Shown one piece after another: positions 10,328 through 21,991 of a stretch of DNA of 21,991 nt; within the stretch, counting starts at the first letter, position 1, and the number at the start of each line of letters is the position of its first letter. Both the position numbers and the translations under genes were made by a program. This stretch comes from a virus: IMG/VR virus record IMGVR_UViG_3300042987_003110, positions 1-21,991 of that record. One strand, 5' to 3'. The notes beneath the pieces are model-generated. The model saw only the letters and a program-made list of their open reading frames with translations, made no database searches and was not told the DNA's origin.

Positions 10328-11961
10328 GTATTTTCTACAGCATTGTCAAGCGGTTCACAGCACCGTCGCTGCCGAAACCGACACAGACGTATGACCAAAG
10401 GTACTTTGACGCGCTAGTCAACGTCCTGCGGCTGTACTTCAACCAACTTGACGACCTTCTGGGGCGCATCGTGGCAGTAACTTCGGCAACCGTCCCGGTA
10501 TCAATCGGCGGCACCAACGTCGATGCGTTTGGCCGTCTGCGGATTAGCGCACCCTACACGCTCTTCGACAGTCAAAACCGCTACGCCGCAGACAACCAGT
10601 TTGACACAAACGCCGGGGGTTCTACAACCTACCTGCCGAACGAAGCGTTGGTGAGTCTGGATGTGACAGGAACGCTAGGCGCGGAAACGGTGCGACAGTC
10701 TTTCCGATCCTTCCCTTATCAACCGGGCAAGGGTCTTTTGGTGTTGGCCACGTTCGTGATGAACGCCGCCAAGTCTGGGCTTCGCCAGCGCATAGGGTAT
10801 TTCAACACACAAAACGGCGTGTTCTTCCAGCAGAACGACAGTGCATTAGCGTTTGTGCTTCGGTCCAACTCTATCCCCACCCCCGGTACGCCCAGTGATG
10901 CTCGCACAGTGACTCAGGCGAACTGGAACGGAGACAAGCTCGACGGCACCGGAGTGAGCGGATACACGCTCGACCCGACCAAGGCGCAGATCCTGTGGAT
11001 GGACTTCGAGTGGTTGGGTGTAGGTTCGGTGCGGTGTGGGTTCGTTATCAATGGTGAGTACATCGTCTGCCACACGTTCAACAATGCGAACGATATTGCC
11101 AGCGTTTACATGACAACGGCGATCCTGCCGGTGCGCTACGAGATCACAAACGTCACAGGCACGGGCAGTAGCTCATCGTTGAAACAGATCTGCTCCACGG
11201 TGATTTCCGAAGGTGGCTACGAGCAGTACTCTCCCGGGCATGTGGCGAGGCGCACCACAGCACTGGCTACGATTGGCACTACTTTCCTGCCGTTGGTGTC
11301 TATCCGGCTGTCTTCCTCGGCGCTTGGCGCAGTTGTCCTGCCGCAGCGGGTTCAGGTGCTGCCTACCACCAGCCAGAACTACGAGGTGGCGCTGGTCAAG
11401 AACCCGACACTGATCCGTAGAACAGCAACACTCAACAACCCGTTTGCTACTGTTAACGGATCTGCAACCGTTACGGTGACCGATGCAGGACACGGCGGTA
11501 CAACGGGGGACTACGTAAACTATTCCGGCGCTGCTGCGGCAGGTGGTCTAACCCTGAACGGTCGGTATCAGATCACCGTTCTGGGCGTTAACACTTACAC
11601 CATCACAGCATCTACCAATGCGACCGCTACTGTTGCGGCGGGCGGTGGGGCAGCGGTTGTTACTACGTATGAGATCAGCAACTCTGCTTGGTTGTCAGTC
11701 CCCACTGACTCCAACGTCCAGTACGACGTATCGGCCATAGCCATCTCCGGTGGCACCATTGTTCAAACGGACTACGTCACATCTAGCGGTAGCGGCGGCA
11801 CAAACCCCCTAGCGGATCCTTCGGGGTACAACTGGGACTTGCAGCTTGGGGCGTCGCTTGCGAACGTCAGCGACATCTACACCGTGCAGATCCGCACGGT
11901 CTCCGGGGCGACCACAGGCGATGCCGTGGGCTCGCTGTCGTTCTGGGACTTGACTCAGTGA
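10324..11961 (+). CDS. Large tail/virion structural protein, GTG start
   Basis: This 545-residue protein starts at a GTG overlapping the upstream stop (GTGA). The N-terminus is a helix (YDQRYFDALVNVLRLYFNQLDDLLGRI). Next comes the conserved block VDAFGRLRISAPYTLFDSQNRY (about residues 66-87), then a long beta-rich body. Residues 372-452 are a small beta domain (NPFxTVNGSATVTVTDAGHG ... NTYTITAST) also found in the nozzle gene. The DAFGRLRxSxPxTLFDS block is common in phage structural proteins adjacent to tail genes. No ATG lies near the conserved N-terminal helix, so GTG is accepted. It is probably an exterior tail or tail-tip component; the exact place is unknown. Confidence 0.85.
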   Translation: MSIFYSIVKRFTAPSLPKPTQTYDQRYFDALVNVLRLYFNQLDDLLGRIVAVTSATVPVSIGGTNVDAFGRLRISAPYTLFDSQNRYAADNQFDTNAGGSTTYLPNEALVSLDVTGTLGAETVRQSFRSFPYQPGKGLLVLATFVMNAAKSGLRQRIGYFNTQNGVFFQQNDSALAFVLRSNSIPTPGTPSDARTVTQANWNGDKLDGTGVSGYTLDPTKAQILWMDFEWLGVGSVRCGFVINGEYIVCHTFNNANDIASVYMTTAILPVRYEITNVTGTGSSSSLKQICSTVISEGGYEQYSPGHVARRTTALATIGTTFLPLVSIRLSSSALGAVVLPQRVQVLPTTSQNYEVALVKNPTLIRRTATLNNPFATVNGSATVTVTDAGHGGTTGDYVNYSGAAAAGGLTLNGRYQITVLGVNTYTITASTNATATVAAGGGAAVVTTYEISNSAWLSVPTDSNVQYDVSAIAISGGTIVQTDYVTSSGSGGTNPLADPSGYNWDLQLGASLANVSDIYTVQIRTVSGATTGDAVGSLSFWDLTQ

Positions 11962-12836: not shown

Positions 12837-13523
12837 ATGTTGTACTTCCCGAAAGAAATCCTGCCGACCGACCTGTTCAGTGATGTATCTGACGCGGACC
12901 TCGCGTCCGCTGCGACGGGCTACGACATCGGCGCCCCATCGTCGTATTTTCTTCCGTCGTCCGGAAGCGGCAGCAACAGCTTCTTGGACACGCTCAGCAA
13001 GAGCATCGCATCGATGGGCAGCGGGCTGATGTCGCCGCGCGGCCTGTTTGGTCTTGCTGGTTTGCTTGCGGGCTACCTCGACCGCGACAAGCAGGGGCGG
13101 GGAGGGGTGCGCTTGAACCTGTCCCCGTCCAAGGTCAAAAAGCAGGTCGTTCAAGGTAGGTACGGCCCCGTCTCCATGACGGAGTACGCGGCTGACGGCG
13201 GGCTCATGCACGCGTACGCTACCGGTGGCGTGCTTACAGGCACCAAGCAGAACCCGCTTCCTATGGAGGACGGGGGCTTCGTGCTGACCGCCAAGGCGGT
13301 AGAAAACGGAACCCCGCACGGTATCCGCCAGCTTCTTCCGGAAGCCCAAATGATCCGTGGCCCGGGGACTGGTACAAGCGACCACATCCCTGCGACAATC
13401 GCCGGTAACACTCCTGCCCGCGTGTCCAACGGAGAGATGTATGTCCCCAAGGCTCAGGTTGATGCCGCAGGCGGCGCACAGGCTCTTTACGCACTGATGC
13501 GTCAACTCGAACGGAGCGCATGA
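12837..13523 (+). CDS. Putative virion protein with GPGTGTSDHIPATI motif
   Basis: This 228-residue protein has a polar N-terminus, a hydrophobic segment (about residues 60-80, MGSGLMSPRGLFGLAGLLAGY), and QGRYGPVSMTEYAADGG / AYATGG (residues 106-131). A conserved C-terminal block follows: GPGTGTSDHIPATI ... ARVSNGEMYVPKAQVDAAGG. The GxGTGTSDxIPAxI ... SxGExxVPxAxV pattern is well known in phage structural and internal virion proteins of unknown exact role. It begins one base after the previous stop, and its own stop overlaps the next start. It probably acts with the neighbouring internal proteins in DNA ejection. Confidence 0.84.
   Translation: MLYFPKEILPTDLFSDVSDADLASAATGYDIGAPSSYFLPSSGSGSNSFLDTLSKSIASMGSGLMSPRGLFGLAGLLAGYLDRDKQGRGGVRLNLSPSKVKKQVVQGRYGPVSMTEYAADGGLMHAYATGGVLTGTKQNPLPMEDGGFVLTAKAVENGTPHGIRQLLPEAQMIRGPGTGTSDHIPATIAGNTPARVSNGEMYVPKAQVDAAGGAQALYALMRQLERSA
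13513..13516 (+). promoter_or_regulatory. Shine-Dalgarno GGAG before the ATGATG start
   Basis: GGAG is three bases before ATG 13520 and six bases before ATG 13523. The same GGAG-plus-six spacing is used one gene upstream, which favours 13523. Confidence 0.7.
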
Positions 13524-14353
13524 TGAGTAATATCGATCCGAGCGGCACCGTCGCTCCTGGCTTTGAGGGCTACCTCACCGACATGCTCAACCGGTCGTGG
13601 GGGCTGTCAAAGGAAGGCTACACGCCCTACACCGGACAGCGCACCGCCTTTGAGACCACGGATCCCACGACGGGACAGGTCAAGGCAGGGTACTCCCCGC
13701 TGGAGCAGAAGGCCTTCACCGGCCTGGGCAGCCTCGGCGCCTACACGCCCGGGCAGTTCAACACGGGCCTTGGTCCGGTCGGGTCCGTCCAAGACTACAT
13801 GAACCCGTACCTGCAGAATGTCGTTGACATCCAGGCCCGGGAAGCCCGCAGGCAGGCCGACATCAGCCGCAACACCGAGCAGGCTCGCCTTGCCCAGGCC
13901 GGGGCCTACGGCGGCAGCAGGCAGGCCATCATGGAGGCTGAGCGCCAGCGCAACCTGGGAACCCAGATCGGTGACATCCAGGCCAAGGGCCTCATGGCTG
14001 CGTTCGAGCAGGCGCAGAAGCAGCGCCTCGGAGAGGCGACCCTCGGGCTTGAAGGTCAACGTCTGGGCGAAGCCTCGCGGCAGTTCGGCGCCAAGCAAGA
14101 CCTTGAGACCATCGGCGAGCAGATGAAGGCTGGCACCATCCAGCGTGGGATCGAGCAGGCGCCTCTGGACATCGGGTACAAGGATTGGACGGAGTCCATG
14201 AACTGGCCGTACAAGCAGCTCGGCTTCATGAGCAACATGATTGGCGGCATGCCGATCCAAGCGCCCGCTTACTCCCCACCTGACTCTGGTTTTGGCAGCA
14301 GTGTCGTTGGCGGGCTGTCCACGCTGTCGCTGTACAACAAGCTGTTTGGCTAA
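13523..14353 (+). CDS. Conserved helical virion protein (NPYLQNVVDIQxREAxRQ type)
   Basis: This protein has 276 residues from ATG 13523 (277 from the adjacent ATG 13520). Its core, about residues 90-170, reads DYMNPYLQNVVDIQAREARR, then AQAGAYGGSRQAIMEAERQRN, then a long Gln/Ala-rich helix. Opening and closing parts are Gly/Pro/Tyr-rich. This helical block is common in marine and freshwater phages next to internal virion genes. The start codon pair ATGATG overlaps the previous stop. Its helix-rich, Gln/Ala-rich composition fits a packaged internal or tail-channel protein. No enzymatic motif is seen. Confidence 0.84.
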   Translation: MSNIDPSGTVAPGFEGYLTDMLNRSWGLSKEGYTPYTGQRTAFETTDPTTGQVKAGYSPLEQKAFTGLGSLGAYTPGQFNTGLGPVGSVQDYMNPYLQNVVDIQAREARRQADISRNTEQARLAQAGAYGGSRQAIMEAERQRNLGTQIGDIQAKGLMAAFEQAQKQRLGEATLGLEGQRLGEASRQFGAKQDLETIGEQMKAGTIQRGIEQAPLDIGYKDWTESMNWPYKQLGFMSNMIGGMPIQAPAYSPPDSGFGSSVVGGLSTLSLYNKLFG

Positions 14354-14365
14354 AGGCAGGCTGTA

Positions 14366-15964
14366 ATGCAGACATCTATGCCGGGACAGGCGCAGGGCTT
14401 CCAGTTTGCGCCGCAGCAAGCCGCAGGTACGCCCGCAGCAAAAGTGCAGAACTTTAGGCAGATCCAAGATCTGCCTACGCTTATCGCCATGCAGCAGCGG
14501 GATCCGTCGATTCCGTTGCTGGCGCACATTGATGAAGTGCGCAAAAAGCTGGAAGCACAGCAAGCGGTGCAACGCCAGCTTGCTGTGCAGCAGTCCCAGC
14601 AGCAGGGACCTCAAACGCTCAACGATCAAATACTGGCCAGTGCAGCACAAACAGCCGGTATGGCCCCCGCTCGTGGCATGGCCACAGGTGGCATTGTGGC
14701 CCTTAGCGGGGGCGGGGCGACCGCGCGTTTTTCTGACGAACAACTGCGCGAAGCCTACCGTCGAAGTGGTGTTTTTGGCGGTGTAGAAGCGCTGTTGGGT
14801 GCGCGCCCTACTTTCAGTGCCCGAACGGCCCCGCAAGAAGTCCGTGCGGCTGCAGAAAAATGGGACAGAGAAGCCGCCGACATCAAGCGGCGGTATGAGC
14901 AGCTCGTGCGTGCTCAACAAGCCGCGCCTGCTCCGGCTCCTGCCGCTGCTGTGCGCCCGCCTGCCCCAGAACCTGCACGCGCCCCGGCGCAAGGACGTGT
15001 ACGGCCTGACGAGACTGCGGTTTTGCCGGCTCCTGCACCGGCTCCTGCACCGGCTCCTGCACCGGCTCCTGCACCGGCTCCCTCGCCTGCTGCCCGAGAA
15101 CAGCGGCCTGCGGCAAACGACCCTATTGCGCAGGCTTTCACGGCGATGACCCAAGCGTACGCACCGCCTACGGTTCCTCCTGAACTGCTTGCGCAGCGAA
15201 AAAGAGTCGCGGATCTGCAAGACCTGTACACACAGCAAGTGCTGCAGGACGCATCATTGATGCGGGGAGAGGCTGACAAAGAAATTGCACGCAGAGAGGC
15301 GCGTGCGAATCAGCCTTTCTTTGAGAGCGCCGAGCGCCCGGCACTGCTTGCAAGCTACATCAACCCCAAGAAGGGGCAGTTTTTTGGCTCGCTTGCCAAA
15401 GGCATTGCTGCCATCGACATCGAAGAAGAGAAGGCGCGTAAGGAGCTTGCGCAGTACCGTGCTACCGAAGCGGACAAGGTGCGGCAACTGAACAACACCT
15501 ACCGCCAGATGCAGATCGAAAGTGCCAAGTACGTCGCGGCCTTGAAAGAAAACGATCTCAAGACGGCACGGGAGTCTGCAGAGAAGCTCACGTCGCTGCG
15601 TTACACGTACGAAAAAGACAAGGCAGAACTGGTGATCAAGGGACGCGAAGCTACGGCCAAAGAAACGGCGGCAAATGCCGCCATGGCTGGGGTTCCTTCG
15701 CGTTCGGATGCCGCAACACAAGCTGCTACGGCACGGTTGGTTTCCGCGCTCAACAACGATCCGATCATGCAGGGCTATCGCAAACGGCTTGAAGGAATCA
15801 TCTCGGCTGAAGATCAAGTGGCACTTTTGGCGCTGATGAAGGCTCGCGAAAAAGAACTCCGTTTGCAGTACGCGCCTGAATTGGAAGCGCTTGGCACCGC
15901 TGGAAGATCTGCGGGGGCCTCCAACGCCCGTGCAGCCGCCGACGCAATTATTAGTGGGAACTGA
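14366..15964 (+). CDS. Internal virion-like protein with MATGGIVAL motif and Pro-Ala linker
   Basis: This 532-residue protein has a Gln-rich N-terminus (residues 1-90), the MATGGIVALSGGG motif (105-117), a helical segment, and a Pro-Ala linker (about residues 190-245). Then come long charged helices with NQPFFESAERPALL and FGSLAKGIAAIDIEEEKARKEL (about residues 310-440), probably coiled coil. MAxGGIVAL and the ARRExxANQPFF block are typical of phage proteins that sit before giant ejection proteins. An AGG-rich ribosome site precedes the ATG. It is probably packaged and ejected with the DNA; no lysozyme or other catalytic motif is seen. Confidence 0.85.
   Translation: MQTSMPGQAQGFQFAPQQAAGTPAAKVQNFRQIQDLPTLIAMQQRDPSIPLLAHIDEVRKKLEAQQAVQRQLAVQQSQQQGPQTLNDQILASAAQTAGMAPARGMATGGIVALSGGGATARFSDEQLREAYRRSGVFGGVEALLGARPTFSARTAPQEVRAAAEKWDREAADIKRRYEQLVRAQQAAPAPAPAAAVRPPAPEPARAPAQGRVRPDETAVLPAPAPAPAPAPAPAPAPAPSPAAREQRPAANDPIAQAFTAMTQAYAPPTVPPELLAQRKRVADLQDLYTQQVLQDASLMRGEADKEIARREARANQPFFESAERPALLASYINPKKGQFFGSLAKGIAAIDIEEEKARKELAQYRATEADKVRQLNNTYRQMQIESAKYVAALKENDLKTARESAEKLTSLRYTYEKDKAELVIKGREATAKETAANAAMAGVPSRSDAATQAATARLVSALNNDPIMQGYRKRLEGIISAEDQVALLALMKAREKELRLQYAPELEALGTAGRSAGASNARAAADAIISGN
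15026..15082 (+). repeat. 12-bp minisatellite encoding Pro-Ala
   Basis: The unit CCGGCTCCTGCA is repeated four times perfectly, plus a partial fifth unit. It encodes Pro-Ala-Pro-Ala without breaking the frame. Its length is likely to vary by slippage. It also explains the long low-complexity antisense frame here. Confidence 0.93.
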
Positions 15965-15966
15965 CA

Positions 15967-18900
15967 ATGGCAACTTCTGCTGATTACGCCAATTGGCTGC
16001 GCAACAACCAGAACAAGCGCGGCACGCCGAACTACGCAACGGTGCTGCGGGCGTATCAGGAAGCTGCGCTTGAGGAGAATCAAGCGGCGCAGGCGGCGCC
16101 CACAGCAGCGCCAATACCTGCTTTGCGTACAGGCATCGGTGCGGCGCTAGGTAAGGGTTTCGAGGACTACATCGGCTCTACGACCACGGGCCTGCAGTCT
16201 GCAACAGGTGATGCCAATTCGGCGGCGGAACTTGCGCTCAAGCGGGCTGCGGCGTCGCCGTACGCTGACCAAGTCAGTTGGGACAAGGTCAAGGAGGTCT
16301 ATGCCAAAGAAGGCGCGGTGGCAGCAGCGCTTGAAGTGGCGCGGCAGGCGCCGCTGGTAATTGCCGAGCAGTTGCCTCAACTGGGAGCTTCGGCGGCAGC
16401 AACCTACGCAGGCGCCAAGCTCGGCGCTTTGACGTCGCCGGTTACAGGCCCGGTAGGCCCCATTGTTGGCGGGGGCCTGGGATTCTTGGCAAGTGCGCTT
16501 CCTTCTGCGTTGGGGAGCAATGTTGAGCGGCAGGCTGCGGTGCAGCGGGAAGCAGGCCAGCCAATCGATATCAACATGGGTGCCGCCGTGCCCGCTGCGC
16601 TTGCGCAGACCGGCCTGGAAGCCGCAGGTACGTTCATTCCCCTGGGCCGCAGACTGGTCGGCAAGCTCTTTGGCGCTGAAGTAGACGCATTGTTGCGCCA
16701 AGGCAAGAAGGAAGCAGCAGAAGCGCTGGCCCGCGAGTCGCTGGTCAAAGTACTGACCAAAGGCACCGCTGTTGGTGTCGCGGCTGAAGTACCTACGGAA
16801 GTCCTGCAACAGGCTATCGAGCGAGGGCAGGCAGGACTGTCGGTGCTGGACGATGACGCCCTCAAAGAGTACGGCCAAACGGTCTACCAAACCGTGTTGT
16901 TTGCAGGGCCGATGGGTGCTACCGCAAGGACTGTGTCGCGTGGCGGCGCCCGTGACGAAATCCGCGCAGCAGAAGAAACCGCAGCCGCCGAGAAGCGCAA
17001 GGCTGAGCGTGAGGCCGAGGAGGCCAAGAAGAAGTCGCCGGAGTACCTGCTTGACCTTGAAGCGCGGTACAAGGCGGCAGTGGCCAAGAAAGCGGAGCTT
17101 GATGCAGCGGCGGCAAAGAAGCCGCCAGCAGGCGCTGATCCGGCGGCCATGATCGCATACCGTGACGCGGTGCGCGAAAGGGATGCGTTTGCCAAGAAGG
17201 AGATGGCAGAAGTATCGCGTGAGTACGTCACGCGCGAGAAAGAGATCGCTGCGCTGAAGGAGCAGCAGCGCGTTGCAGGAATGACGCCGCAAGACGCGTT
17301 TCTTGAGCAACTCGGCATTCCCGAAGTGAAGGTTACGCCAACTGCGGCACCGAGCAGCATGGAGGAAGCGGCGCTTGAAGCCGCTAAACAGCCTGCATTT
17401 TCTAGGCTAGAAACGTATGCAAAAGAGCGCATGGCTCTGGCGGATGAACAATCTTTTGGCATGGCTGAGCCAAAGGATTACGCGGAATACTTGATGGGAT
17501 CTATACCCACGGCACGTCTTTTGGTAAAAGAAAACCAGCAGCTTCCGGGGTTTGGTAAGAGAAAAAGTAACGAGATTATTAAGCTGGTAAAAGAACGGCT
17601 TGAAAACTACGACAAGGCGCAGGCCGCGAAGCGGCAGGGTTCGCCTATTGCGCAGCTTGAAGCCGAAGAAGCTGCGGCCCTGGAAGACACGGCACGCGCG
17701 GAAGAAGCACGCCTTGCCGAGACCGAAGAACGCAAGCGTCTGGCCCCGGAGATCACTGCCCTGCAGCGCATGGCTGCGCGTAGGCTGCCGGAAAGCGTCC
17801 AAGAAGATCCGTACCTTCAAACCGTCATTGAGCGTGCTGCCCGTGCGGCGCCTGCGCCTGCGCCGCAGCCTTCTGCTGCGATTGGCCAGATGCAGCAGCT
17901 CCTTACCGGGCAAGACGTAACGTACACGGCAGAAGAGCAGAAAGAACGGCAACTGCGTCGAGTTCCTGGCGAAGGCTTCAAGCTGTTTGGTGAAAGTGCA
18001 GGAGGCCGTAAAGAACTGCTAAACATTCTTCGTCGTTACACCGATGTACGGCAAGAAGAACAAGAACTTCGTGCGGCTTTGCCGGAAAAACCCGTGCTCG
18101 GGCGTTCCACCGAAGAAGAAATAGCCGCATATGAACAAGCGGTTGCCGATTTTGACGACTTTGTAAAGAACGAACTGCGTCCTGTAGAAGCAGCGTATCA
18201 ACGACGTAAATCAGAAATTGATGCTTTGCGGGCAGCCGAAGCTGCTCCTGCCAAGACGCCGGATACCAAGCTGCTGCGGGAGCGCATCAACCGTGCGCTG
18301 CTGAACCCCGATCTGTCGGACGCTGCATACGATCTTCTGCGCAGGGCAGAGAATCTGCTGCCAGATGTCGAGATGCGCCTGGAGACGCTGCGCACCGTGC
18401 AAGACCCCACACGCGGTACGCAACAAGACATTGCGCAGACCGCAGGTTTGCTTGAGCTGCTGGACAAGCAGCTCAAGCAGATAGAAATCGGAACCGCGCA
18501 ACCGCGCAAACGTCCCAAAGGAATGTCAGACGAAGCATACGCAGCCTATGCGTATGCCGGAGCTGAGCGTCGCCGTGAAGGCCTGCCTATGGCAGGTCGC
18601 ACCCTTGAGCAGCAACGCCGTCCTATCGCTCCCGGCGCCGCGAACATTGTTGAGCCTACGCTTGGCACACAAGACGACATCAAGCTTGCGCGGCAACGGA
18701 GCTATGCCGAGCTTGTGTCGCAGGGTTTTTCTCCTGGCGAAGCCGCCAAACGCGCATTTCAGATCGGCAAGCCCACCCGAGAAGCGCAGGAAGTCCCGAC
18801 AGATCGTTTCGCTACGCCCGTGCTGCCGCCTGAAAGAGGCAGCCAAACGGACGTCACCCGGCGCTTCGCAGCGCCTGTTACGCCGATGCAACCGCGCGAA

Positions 18901-21900
18901 GCGCGACAGATGGCTCCGGGGCCTGAGGCGGAAAGACAGCCCGGGCGCTTCCTGGCGCAACCCCCGCGCAAGGGCACCATCCGGGCGCAGGGCGCACCGT
19001 TGTCTTTGGCCTCAGAGATCGAGCCGTTGCTGGACGCGCTGGAGCGGGCGCGAGCAGAAGACGCGGGGCAGCAGGTGCTGTTCCCTGAACTTGAGAAAGA
19101 GCGGGGCACGATTGCGTCCACGCCCGAAGCATTCCGCAGGCGCCTGGAGCGCTTGAAGGCCGTCAAAGACGGCTACGCCAGAGAACTGCTGCGCAAAGAA
19201 GCAGCGATAGAACCGCTTGAGCAAGAGATTGCGCAGCTTGAAGAAACGCTGATTGTCTACCAGCAGCAACAGAAAGCGTTTGAGAACGCGCAGTTCATAC
19301 TGAACAACAACGCGGCGCTGCTCAAAGAGTTGCGCATAACGGGGGCGGGCACCGACGCTTTGCGCGGTGGTATGGGTGCCCTCACGCTTTCTGAAAAGAA
19401 TCTGAAGCAGGTTGCGGATGCGTTTGCGCGGCAGCGCACGCTGATCAACGCCTATCTCGAGCGCGTTGAACGAGAAAAAGCTGAAGCACCCAAACTCAAG
19501 GCGTCCGACTTCAACGAGATAGGCCAACTGCTTGCCACGCAAGCCAATGATGAGGCGCGGGCAAAACAGGCGCTGGAGTTCGTACAAGAAGAACTCACAC
19601 GCATTACACGTGCCGAAGAGGACATCTACAACCGGCAGTTTCCACAGCTTGATCAAGCAAAGGAAACGGCTCGTGCAGGCATGCGCGACTTGCACAAACG
19701 CTACGGCGAAGCGTCGGAGTGGCTCAACGGCCTGAAAGAACTGCGGGTAAAGATTCAGAGGCAGCAGGCTGTTGCTAGCGAAAGCCAGAAACAGAGAACC
19801 TCGAATCCGGAGTTGAGTCAACTTGTTGCAGATCTCGGCAGGCAGCTCGAAGCTATTGACGGGCGAATTGCCCGAAACAAAGCGTTGATGGGGCGGCTTG
19901 AGACACAGATTGCGGTGGCTGTTGCGGAGTCCAAGATTGCAACCCTCAAGGCCAACGCGTCTCCTGAAGCCATCAAAAGAGCATCTGATGATCTAGTCGC
20001 TGCCAAGCAGCGGCTTCGTACGCTGCGTGCCGAAGTCTTCAAAGGGCAAGCAAAAGAAGTCGAAGCTGCGGCTGAACCGCAAGCTGACGAGGCAACGGAT
20101 TACGCCGAAAACTTGAAGACGCACCAGCGCATGCTGGAGGCAATGCAGCTTCGTACAGAGTCGGGCACCATTGTGCCTGCGCTCTCTTACGCGCAGCGGC
20201 TGGCGCGTGAAGCGGGTACTGCGGCAAACATCAAGACCAAGTTCTCCGTCGATGACCTCGCGCTCTTGGACAAAGACCCCAAGCGCGTGCTCAACGGGCT
20301 TGTCAGCCGCGCCACAGATCTTGAGAACAAGATCAGGCAAGCGGTTGCACGTTCCAGAGGCGCGGAGTTCCGTAGCGAAAAGGATCTCATCAACCGCTAC
20401 AGCAACTTGCTGTACGAATACGAAAACGCCGAGACCGCGTTGGAGCGTTCGCAACTTGAGCCCGAACTGTCTATTGCACTGCGCGAATACAACGACGCGC
20501 TCAACAAGACGTTGAATCAGCGCGTGGTTTGGAAAGGGCAGGCACGGGACACGGCAGAGCTGCTCAACACTTACCAGAAGATTGCGTATCTTGAAGAGCG
20601 TTTCTTCTTGCCGCAAGCGGCGGAGAAGCGTACGTACGGTCCCGAAACACCGGAAGAAAGTGCTGCGCGTGAACGCGAAGCTGCGGCAATTTTTGAATCG
20701 CAGCGCGAAGCACAAGCCGGTGCAGGGGAGACTACCGGCGAAGCCCTCACGCGTTCACAAGCAGCGAAGCGCCGTAAACCTCAAAAGACGGTATACAGCG
20801 GCAAGGGTGTTAGCCCTGAAGAGCTGTCCAAGAAGGACGCCGAAGATCTGCTTGTTGCCGAAGGAAAGCAAGCCAACGGGCAACCCCTGACGGCACGAGA
20901 GCGGAAGCTCCTTTCGCAGCAGCGAAAGGCTGACGAACGGATCGCAGAAAACACGCGTATCAAAGAAGAGGCGGCAAAGAACGCGCTTGTTCGCGCTGCA
21001 TTCGAGAAGAAGGAACGCAAGGAGCAACTCACTGCGCTGGAGCAATTCCTGTACGACGAGGCCGTCAGCGCAGGCGCTAAAACGGCGGAAGATGTTGACG
21101 CCATTTCTCTCGAAGAAGCGGCGGCGACAGAAACCAAACCCTCTCGTGGTGCGCGTACTACCGAAGAAGCAGTTGATGAGAAGACGCGGACGGAGCTTGA
21201 GGAGACTTTTGCCGCGCGTGCTGGTTTTGAAGACGTCGAACTCTCTCCTGGCGCTACCGCCAACCCGTCCACTACCGACAGCGTCCGCACGGAACTCAAG
21301 CCGCACTTCCCCGACCTGGGTCGGGTGCAGGTCTACGACTCGGTCGAGGCGCTCGTCAAGGCCAACCCGCAGTACGAGGGGCGCATCCCTGACGACGCGC
21401 GTGGCTTCGTTGACCGTGCGGGCAACAAGGCGTTCTTGATCGCCGGGAACATCAACCAGGGGCAGGCGCTGAGCGTCCTGCTGCACGAGGTCGGCGCCCA
21501 CATCGGGATGAAGAACCTCCTGGGCGATGCCCAGTACAACGCCTTCGTGAACGCCGTGGAGCGCTGGCAGAAGGCCCCGGCCACCTCGGCTGAAGGCCGC
21601 GTTGCGCGGGCCGCCCAGGCGCGTGTGGAGGCCGCTGAGACCCCCGAGAGCCAGCAGCGCGACGAGCTGCTGGCCTACGCCGTCGAGGAAGCCGTCAACG
21701 CTGGGATCACGCCGCAGACCAAGAGCCCGCTGGGCCAGTGGCTGGGCCGCATCGTGCAGCGCATGGAGGCCGCTGTGCGCCGCTTCTTCGGCATGGAGCC
21801 CAAGGGCATCAGCCTGCGCGACCTCGTGAACACCGCCTACGGTGCAGCCAAGGTGGAGATGCAGCCTGCCACGCCGCAGATGTCTCGGCGCACGTTCCTG

Positions 21901-21991
21901 CGCGGTGCAAGCGCAGCCGTGGGTGCAATGAAGCTGCCTCCGTTGTCGAAGGAGATGAACCTGCAAGCGTTGCGCAGTGTTTTTGATGGAT
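15967..21991 (+). CDS. Giant polyvalent phage protein with zincin-type metallopeptidase motif, partial
   Basis: One frame runs unbroken for 2008 codons and is cut by the window end. Residues 1-40 hold a short opening domain. A Gly/Ala-rich hydrophobic segment (about 131-184) and a second one (about 205-230) precede the block VPTEVLQQAIERGQAGLSVLDDDALKEYG (about 275-303). That block is frequent in giant phage ejection or polyvalent proteins. Charged coiled coils fill most of residues 330-1750. Residues about 1780-1965 form a metallopeptidase-like module with H1840-E1841-x3-H1845 and a following ELLAYAVEEAV block. A SRRTFLRG Tat-type motif (1973-1980) lies near the edge. It starts two bases after the previous stop. 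It is probably packaged and injected to act on the host. Confidence 0.9.
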   Translation, partial: MATSADYANWLRNNQNKRGTPNYATVLRAYQEAALEENQAAQAAPTAAPIPALRTGIGAALGKGFEDYIGSTTTGLQSATGDANSAAELALKRAAASPYADQVSWDKVKEVYAKEGAVAAALEVARQAPLVIAEQLPQLGASAAATYAGAKLGALTSPVTGPVGPIVGGGLGFLASALPSALGSNVERQAAVQREAGQPIDINMGAAVPAALAQTGLEAAGTFIPLGRRLVGKLFGAEVDALLRQGKKEAAEALARESLVKVLTKGTAVGVAAEVPTEVLQQAIERGQAGLSVLDDDALKEYGQTVYQTVLFAGPMGATARTVSRGGARDEIRAAEETAAAEKRKAEREAEEAKKKSPEYLLDLEARYKAAVAKKAELDAAAAKKPPAGADPAAMIAYRDAVRERDAFAKKEMAEVSREYVTREKEIAALKEQQRVAGMTPQDAFLEQLGIPEVKVTPTAAPSSMEEAALEAAKQPAFSRLETYAKERMALADEQSFGMAEPKDYAEYLMGSIPTARLLVKENQQLPGFGKRKSNEIIKLVKERLENYDKAQAAKRQGSPIAQLEAEEAAALEDTARAEEARLAETEERKRLAPEITALQRMAARRLPESVQEDPYLQTVIERAARAAPAPAPQPSAAIGQMQQLLTGQDVTYTAEEQKERQLRRVPGEGFKLFGESAGGRKELLNILRRYTDVRQEEQELRAALPEKPVLGRSTEEEIAAYEQAVADFDDFVKNELRPVEAAYQRRKSEIDALRAAEAAPAKTPDTKLLRERINRALLNPDLSDAAYDLLRRAENLLPDVEMRLETLRTVQDPTRGTQQDIAQTAGLLELLDKQLKQIEIGTAQPRKRPKGMSDEAYAAYAYAGAERRREGLPMAGRTLEQQRRPIAPGAANIVEPTLGTQDDIKLARQRSYAELVSQGFSPGEAAKRAFQIGKPTREAQEVPTDRFATPVLPPERGSQTDVTRRFAAPVTPMQPREARQMAPGPEAERQPGRFLAQPPRKGTIRAQGAPLSLASEIEPLLDALERARAEDAGQQVLFPELEKERGTIASTPEAFRRRLERLKAVKDGYARELLRKEAAIEPLEQEIAQLEETLIVYQQQQKAFENAQFILNNNAALLKELRITGAGTDALRGGMGALTLSEKNLKQVADAFARQRTLINAYLERVEREKAEAPKLKASDFNEIGQLLATQANDEARAKQALEFVQEELTRITRAEEDIYNRQFPQLDQAKETARAGMRDLHKRYGEASEWLNGLKELRVKIQRQQAVASESQKQRTSNPELSQLVADLGRQLEAIDGRIARNKALMGRLETQIAVAVAESKIATLKANASPEAIKRASDDLVAAKQRLRTLRAEVFKGQAKEVEAAAEPQADEATDYAENLKTHQRMLEAMQLRTESGTIVPALSYAQRLAREAGTAANIKTKFSVDDLALLDKDPKRVLNGLVSRATDLENKIRQAVARSRGAEFRSEKDLINRYSNLLYEYENAETALERSQLEPELSIALREYNDALNKTLNQRVVWKGQARDTAELLNTYQKIAYLEERFFLPQAAEKRTYGPETPEESAAREREAAAIFESQREAQAGAGETTGEALTRSQAAKRRKPQKTVYSGKGVSPEELSKKDAEDLLVAEGKQANGQPLTARERKLLSQQRKADERIAENTRIKEEAAKNALVRAAFEKKERKEQLTALEQFLYDEAVSAGAKTAEDVDAISLEEAAATETKPSRGARTTEEAVDEKTRTELEETFAARAGFEDVELSPGATANPSTTDSVRTELKPHFPDLGRVQVYDSVEALVKANPQYEGRIPDDARGFVDRAGNKAFLIAGNINQGQALSVLLHEVGAHIGMKNLLGDAQYNAFVNAVERWQKAPATSAEGRVARAAQARVEAAETPESQQRDELLAYAVEEAVNAGITPQTKSPLGQWLGRIVQRMEAAVRRFFGMEPKGISLRDLVNTAYGAAKVEMQPATPQMSRRTFLRGASAAVGAMKLPPLSKEMNLQALRSVFDG
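21285..21860 (+). other. Zincin-like metallopeptidase module inside the giant protein
   Basis: This coding segment covers residues about 1774-1965. It contains DSVEALVKANP, then GFVDRAGNKAFLIAGNI, then SVLLHEVGAHIGM. The two His and the Glu of HExxxH are the expected zinc ligands and catalytic base in this phage-associated zincin group, where three rather than two residues separate them. A downstream Glu in DELLAYAVEEAV may supply the third ligand; that is inference. The base composition is visibly more GC-rich at third positions than in the preceding coiled-coil region. Confidence 0.7.

Follow-up and report, generated by a model that had tools for sequence, protein, structure and literature searches.

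Deep within a giant phage protein we find a short sequence resembling a twin-arginine (Tat) signal peptide, which is held under its own purifying constraint, opens an exchangeable module that follows a zinc-metallopeptidase (MPTase) domain, and recurs inside other giant phage proteins—there, apart from one group with a homologous module, at the front of modules whose bodies are unrelated. The protein is encoded on the viral record IMGVR_UViG_3300042987_003110 of IMG/VR, all 21,991 bases of which were analyzed (hereafter the window); its open reading frame (ORF) starts at ATG 15967 and continues without a stop to the window end, for 2008 codons (Table 1). We tentatively favor the view that this Tat-like "head" is a genuine embedded targeting signal of the Tat type, carried on an exchangeable module of an injected polyvalent protein.

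A Tat-like head inside a giant phage protein

Residues 1972–1988 of the frame from 15967 are MSRRTFLRGASAAVGAM; codon 1972 lies at 21880, and from there the protein reads MSRRTFLRGASAAVGAMKLPPLSKEMNLQALRSVFDG. The original prediction had pointed to a Tat-consensus motif in this continuous frame, and the sequence bears it out—MSRRTFLRG at 21880 carries the twin-Arg core S/T-R-R-x-phi-phi, and the segment taken by itself scores 21.0 bits against TIGR01409 (TAT_signal_seq), above the cut-off of 16.7. Within the full window protein, PF10518 (TAT_signal) reached 16.6 bits, under its gathering score of 22.7, and Pfam returned only this and a weak Nre_N match. Shuffling the protein produced [ST]RRxFL[KR] in 6 of 20,000 shuffles. 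Prolines stand at +16 and +17 after the twin Arg, and the helix breaker of Tat signals lies 12–17 residues distal to the Arg pair (PMC7317946).

Relatives with the segment were first found in viral contigs using a DNA pattern for MSRRTFLRGA; to avoid selection bias toward the motif, a second search used the peptidase profile alone and yielded 80 loci (L023–L102). Every peptidase-found relative that has the cassette (the head and the domain behind it) reads M-S-R-R-[TAM]-F-L-R-G-A at the same place after the peptidase, with only the Tat "x" varying, and the Arg pair is invariant in every relative with the segment. Comparing the window with L039 gives 90% identity over the 20 residues of the head at a proportion of synonymous differences (pS) of 0.76, where synonymous sites are near saturation, while the 17 residues after it are 24% identical, with a proportion of nonsynonymous differences (pN) of 0.55. 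Across the window family, residues 1–10 of the head have a pN of 0.034 against a pS of 0.52, and the Ser codon comes from different codon families, TCT in the window and AGT or AGC in other members. The head is under its own purifying constraint, since it is kept at near-saturated synonymous sites while the adjoining body diverges.

Since only 17 codons lie between the 20-residue head and the end of the window, the remainder of the cassette can be read only in relatives, in which the whole cassette is ~164 residues long and extends to a second joint, [DE]LLFS. AlphaFold2 predicts an all-helical fold for it at good confidence (pLDDT 82, pTM 0.78), the uncertainty lying in the first ~8 residues; the fold had no match among PDB or viral structures, and the sequence no PDB relative (best E 0.15). 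The original prediction had asked what follows the motif and had staked itself on a conserved Arg pair and a folded domain; the pair is conserved, and the relatives are predicted to carry a folded helical domain there, so that it came through this check. In L002, whose peptidase is 96% identical to that of the window, the contig breaks within the head, and the phage nevertheless has the cassette, because its tail and LFSR joint lie at the opposite end of the contig, as for a circular genome opened there; the end of the window is probably a similar break. These two ends—the window stopping 111 bases past the motif start, L002 inside the motif—are what a chance match or an assembly artifact at a contig end would have in its favor. 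We consider the probability of either to be negligible, given that the motif holds the same position on many independent contigs, several with complete ORFs, and that the placement of the L002 tail fits a circular genome.

An exchangeable module behind the peptidase domain

In an alignment of 28 sequences of the MPTase domain, H46, E47, H51, and E113/E114 are invariant, as expected of a zincin within a large multidomain protein. The site immediately after this domain (following GAAxxE) is variously filled among relatives: with nothing, with the Tat cassette, with an LPD23-bearing region (L026), with a GTWHGTG-type domain, or with other inserts. L003 and L004, with peptidases 97–98% identical to that of the window, lack the segment and continue ...PQPAEAGEILFSRNLPTA. 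Because near-identical phages are without the cassette or have other modules at this place, the slot is a module-swap site of a polyvalent protein. We do not claim the GTWHGTG-type domain as an ADP-ribosyltransferase; the likeness was seen by eye, and Pfam did not confirm it. A case from a single metagenome involves the related phages L102 (contig 3300035703_000080), without the Tat cassette, and L002 (3300035703_000082), with it. In L009 (4122–13805), a single giant ORF holds tandem copies of related peptidases, with HEAGVH and HEVGSH.

Upstream of the peptidase, a joint of the form [FY]S[RK], mostly FSRG, lies 70–115 aa before HExxH in 44 of 64 distinct relatives (at 81 aa in L030, for example), and an LFSR joint is often found after the slot; with one joint preceding and the other often following, peptidase and cargo look like a single bracketed module. 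The two joints are possibly a processing site or a linker signature of these polyvalent proteins. Relatives of the giant ORF with both ends present are about 2430–3115 aa long and carry Pfam LPD38 near the C-terminus (E 1e-24 to 1e-31), in a region that the window stops short of. The giant protein belongs to the polyvalent proteins as defined by Iyer et al. 2017 (PMC5512222).

Recurrence of the head on unrelated cassettes

Viral contigs were scanned with DNA patterns for M-S-R-R-T-F-L-R-G-A, M-S-R-R-[A/S/T/P]-F-L-R-G-A, M-S-R-R-x-F-L-K-G-A, and S-R-R-x-F-L-K-G-A, the last without requiring Met, giving 40 distinct loci, each of which was read in frame. Nine of these are not Tat-like heads, being chance matches without a hydrophobic stretch (seven) or lacking the Arg pair (two). 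Among the 31 loci with a Tat-like head, 28 have it inside an ORF and two at the N-terminus (L137, L139); one (L140) is undecided, its start lying beyond the contig. The internal heads fall into six groups: W (the window family), B (L129/L130, later also L132), C (L119 and near-copies), D (L144, L146, L148/L149), E (L123/L125/L128), and F (L122/L126). Many loci in a group are near-copies, so the number of groups, not 28, measures independence. The cassettes of W and B are homologous (37% identity over 106 columns); across W/B, C, D, E, and F, the cassettes have only the head in common, their bodies being unrelated.

The cassettes also differ in where they sit—after the peptidase domain in W, and inside it in B, between HEAGH and the next helix, a site that is empty in L133–L135, which have no homolog of the L130 cassette. 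The group C cassette appears to interrupt a peptidase domain too, since the W peptidase profile aligns over both of its flanks (hhalign probability 90%). Variable inserts between the MPTase helices at this place are described for polyvalent proteins (PMC5512222). At internal positions, PF10518 scored 30.9 bits in L146 and 26.2 bits in L125, both above the gathering score, and fragments of the window, L119, and L125 exceeded the TIGR01409 cut-off. Moreover, in groups W, B, C, and E, and in two of three members compared from D, the head has a Pro 16 residues beyond the second Arg, a residue that the search patterns did not specify. The D-group giant proteins are homologous to that of BPP-1-like podophages. 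Searches against INPHARED phages by tblastn gave no match for the window peptidase region, whole protein, or cassette, nor for the L130, L119, L122, N-terminal L146, and L125 regions; likewise, GTDB genome contigs held no relative of the peptidase or the cassette.

The groups bear on the idea that the head is a relic of capture, the cassette having come from a stand-alone Tat-exported protein and the head now serving as a structural helix or membrane-contact element that Tat does not recognize. Such an origin would account for the Met that, as at the start of a gene, opens the cassettes of W, B, C, E, and F, for W/B hydrophobic (h-) regions that are short and in some members broken by Lys, and for the helix that the head forms in the model. 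An unused signal should decay, yet the S/T-R-R-x-F-L core is under strong purifying selection while the body diverges; the recurrence of this core on unrelated bodies, in some cases in textbook form (L122/L126, L146), would be difficult to account for if no function were shared; and no stand-alone relative was found in searches that included INPHARED phages and GTDB genome contigs. We regard this explanation as unlikely.

Several loci showed further features. Besides the Tat cassette inside its peptidase, L132 (9001–11031) has a second insert of ~150 aa (LFHGSPNADLTSL...FFTPNQKVAEQYA) after the peptidase, which by eye, and unconfirmed, is ADP-ribosyltransferase-like. On a 369 kb phage contig, L139 (~11605–11632, − strand) encodes a protein of ~100 aa with a textbook Tat signal near its N-terminus (MRLEEILEDISRRGFLKGAAGAAGLAVAGGAQAKG). 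L122 (1181–2536, + strand) and L126 (3431–4657, − strand) carry the same Tat signal and small domain (MSRRGFLKGAGAMAAGISAA.GARADNQTDPNKL) within two different proteins, and their contigs have scattered GVAE[GN] motifs, perhaps a repeat that is spreading or else sites for a prohead protease; cleavage of the L122/L126 proteins between the E and G of VAEG, by a protease of the T4 prohead type, is conceivable.

Genomic context and probable entry into the host

The genes neighboring the giant ORF in the window match virion structural, endolysin, tail-fiber, and DNA-ejection PHROGs, a late or virion neighborhood, and the giant gene sits within an ejection/internal-virion cluster, as indicated by the neighboring match to PHROG 4287 (Table 1). 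Gene order around the giant gene resembles that of Phage DSL-LC04, which is also the nearest named relative of a neighboring structural protein, followed by cyanophages and HMO-2011. We infer that the giant protein is probably packaged and injected along with the DNA.

Table 1. Features of the window bearing on the giant protein and its Tat-like head
Feature	Position	Strand	Basis or remark
Giant ORF, polyvalent-type protein	15967..21990	+	Open at 3' end
Neighboring gene, DNA ejection protein match	13520..14353	+	PHROG 4287
Upstream module joint, 81 aa before HExxH	21241..21249	+	LSPG in window, FSRG in most relatives
Zinc-metallopeptidase (MPTase) domain	21349..21858	+	HEVGAH 21484-21501; second-helix Glu region DELLAYAVEEAV
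Linker MQPATPQ, module-swap site	21859..21879	+	Comparison of relatives
Tat-like head MSRRTFLRGASAAVGAMKLP, 20 residues	21880..21939	+	Sequence, TIGR01409, conservation
Head sub-parts	Arg pair 21886-21891; short h-region GASAAVGAM 21904-21930; Lys 21931-21933; conserved Leu-Pro 21934-21939	+	
Start of helical cassette body, cut by window end	21940..21990	+	~164 aa in relatives, ending at second LFSR joint

This placement also speaks for a Tat-independent role, in which the head would be an amphipathic, membrane-inserting or envelope-binding element of the ejection apparatus that enters the inner membrane during DNA delivery. The giant gene adjoins a DNA-ejection protein match, proteins of short-tailed phages must cross the envelope, and a basic n-region followed by a hydrophobic stretch would suit membrane insertion. 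We nevertheless judge this role improbable, as it leaves unexplained both the conserved Tat consensus (both Arg, Phe, Leu, and the Pro at +16) and why near-identical phages manage without the head. On the − strand of the window, long open frames (e.g., 13607–15238 and 20755–21990) mirror the coding strand and are most likely an effect of composition, not genes.

An improbable internal translation start

Among its options, the original prediction had included an internal start at ATG 21880, which would give a second, N-terminally Tat-tagged product. In every member seen of W, B, C, E, and F, a Met does stand directly before [ST]RR. The window ATG has no Shine-Dalgarno match, however, and none is conserved in relatives, whereas the real gene starts of the window mostly have one, at least in part. 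In the D-group heads (L144, L146, L148), the codon directly before SRR is not a start codon, and in the window, in-frame ATG/GTG/TTG codons at −27 and −21 are equally plausible starts. We therefore rejected internal initiation as very improbable, and the preserved Met more plausibly goes back to a separate gene from which the cassette arose.

How an embedded Tat signal could work

We prefer the other options of the original prediction, a polyprotein that is processed and partly exported, or a membrane anchor of the Tat type within the protein. Under this favored reading, the module, made up of the ~20-aa Tat-like head and the helical domain folded behind it, would plug in between the zinc-peptidase domain and the LFSR joint, and the giant protein would enter the host cytoplasm by injection with the phage DNA. 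The head might then work where it stands, in the manner of the internal Tat signals of actinobacterial Rieske proteins, or might first be freed by proteolysis, through the adjacent zinc peptidase or another protease. Recognition of SRRxFL[KR] by the host TatBC receptor would be followed by placement of the cassette and the downstream part in or across the host inner membrane, or by their delivery to the periplasm. In the window lineage, the head may serve for docking or anchoring and stop short of full export, given its short, Lys-broken h-region. The same head on unrelated giant phage proteins suggests that phages use the host export machine to place parts of injected proteins. A more general proposal is that tailed phages have repeatedly acquired mobile "address" cassettes, by which giant injected proteins gain a working embedded Tat signal, so that following entry and cleavage, perhaps autocatalytic, host Tat would carry a phage domain back out to the inner membrane or periplasm; this we consider possible but doubtful.

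Several observations weigh against a targeting role. Tat signals normally occupy free N-termini, and this head begins at residue 1972, with ~2000 residues before it. The window copy has no signal-peptidase AxA site; AKA is found in many W relatives and ARA in L122/L126, and uncleaved Tat anchors exist, so that AxA is not essential. The original prediction had cautioned that the hydrophobic stretch is short and ends in Lys, rightly so, as it comprises 9 uncharged residues, and L039, L130, and L132 likewise have only 9 before Lys; the minimum for a Tat h-region is at least 12 residues (PMC7317946). Uncharged h-regions measure 20–22 residues in L036/L041 and 12–16 in L119, L125, L144, L146, L148, L140, L122, and L126. 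In the W family, the FSR joints bracket the peptidase together with the cassette, and cutting there would leave the head internal. The head motif is absent from all 10 named phages examined that have D-type homologs. Finally, both the dependence of the head on Tat and a cleavage that would release it are steps that we infer. Our confidence in a targeting signal stays tentative because the window h-region is shorter than 12, AxA is missing, the head is far from the N-terminus, and FSR cleavage leaves it internal.

Relation to known systems

Polyvalent proteins, Tat signals, and bacterial internal Tat signals are all known already. Searches of open-access full texts turned up neither their combination, in injected giant phage proteins, into an exchangeable module that recurs nor any paper describing an internal Tat signal in a virion protein of a phage. 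Like the polyvalent phage proteins (PMC5512222), the proteins described here are giant and multidomain, with a zincin MPTase hub, LPD38 near the C-terminus in relatives, and LPD23 in the L026 slot; no Tat or signal-peptide module is described there, and the Tat-headed cassette is an additional module of the targeting type. With Tat signal peptides (PF10518/TIGR01409) the heads share the S/T-R-R-x-F-L-[KR] core, a weakly hydrophobic Gly/Ala-rich stretch, and the Pro at +16, but they lie inside the protein, with hundreds to thousands of residues between them and the N-terminus, and in the window the uncharged h-region is below 12 residues, without AxA. Actinobacterial Rieske proteins (Sco2149) offer a precedent for a twin-Arg motif acting inside a protein; in this bacterial cofactor protein, membrane insertion relies on Sec for the earlier helices and on Tat for the final one (PMC5449189), whereas no comparable Sec/Tat helix arrangement was identified in the giant phage protein.

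A domain with one cellular destination shares its polypeptide, in polyvalent proteins, with domains bound for others, and an embedded, swappable Tat-type address would answer that puzzle directly. SignalP reads N-termini, so embedded heads would escape a SignalP-6.0 screen such as the one applied to Klebsiella phage proteins. That screen found no Tat signal, and tatC mutants gained fitness under three Klebsiella phages (PMC13412088), an observation on which embedded Tat-type heads would bear if those phages carry them.

A known counterpart of the group D proteins (L146/L148) is the giant virion protein of the bbp10 type in Bordetella phage BPP-1 and relatives: its C-terminal ~1100 aa are homologous to the L146 protein, it has HExxH motif(s), and its gene comes after a structural lysozyme gene, whereas the embedded Tat head is missing in the 10 named relatives examined. 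In the genome of Limnohabitans phage DC33 (PQ492659.1, L157), a giant virion-type gene takes up 9.4 kb of 39 kb, and the Inoviridae label of its record looks wrong.

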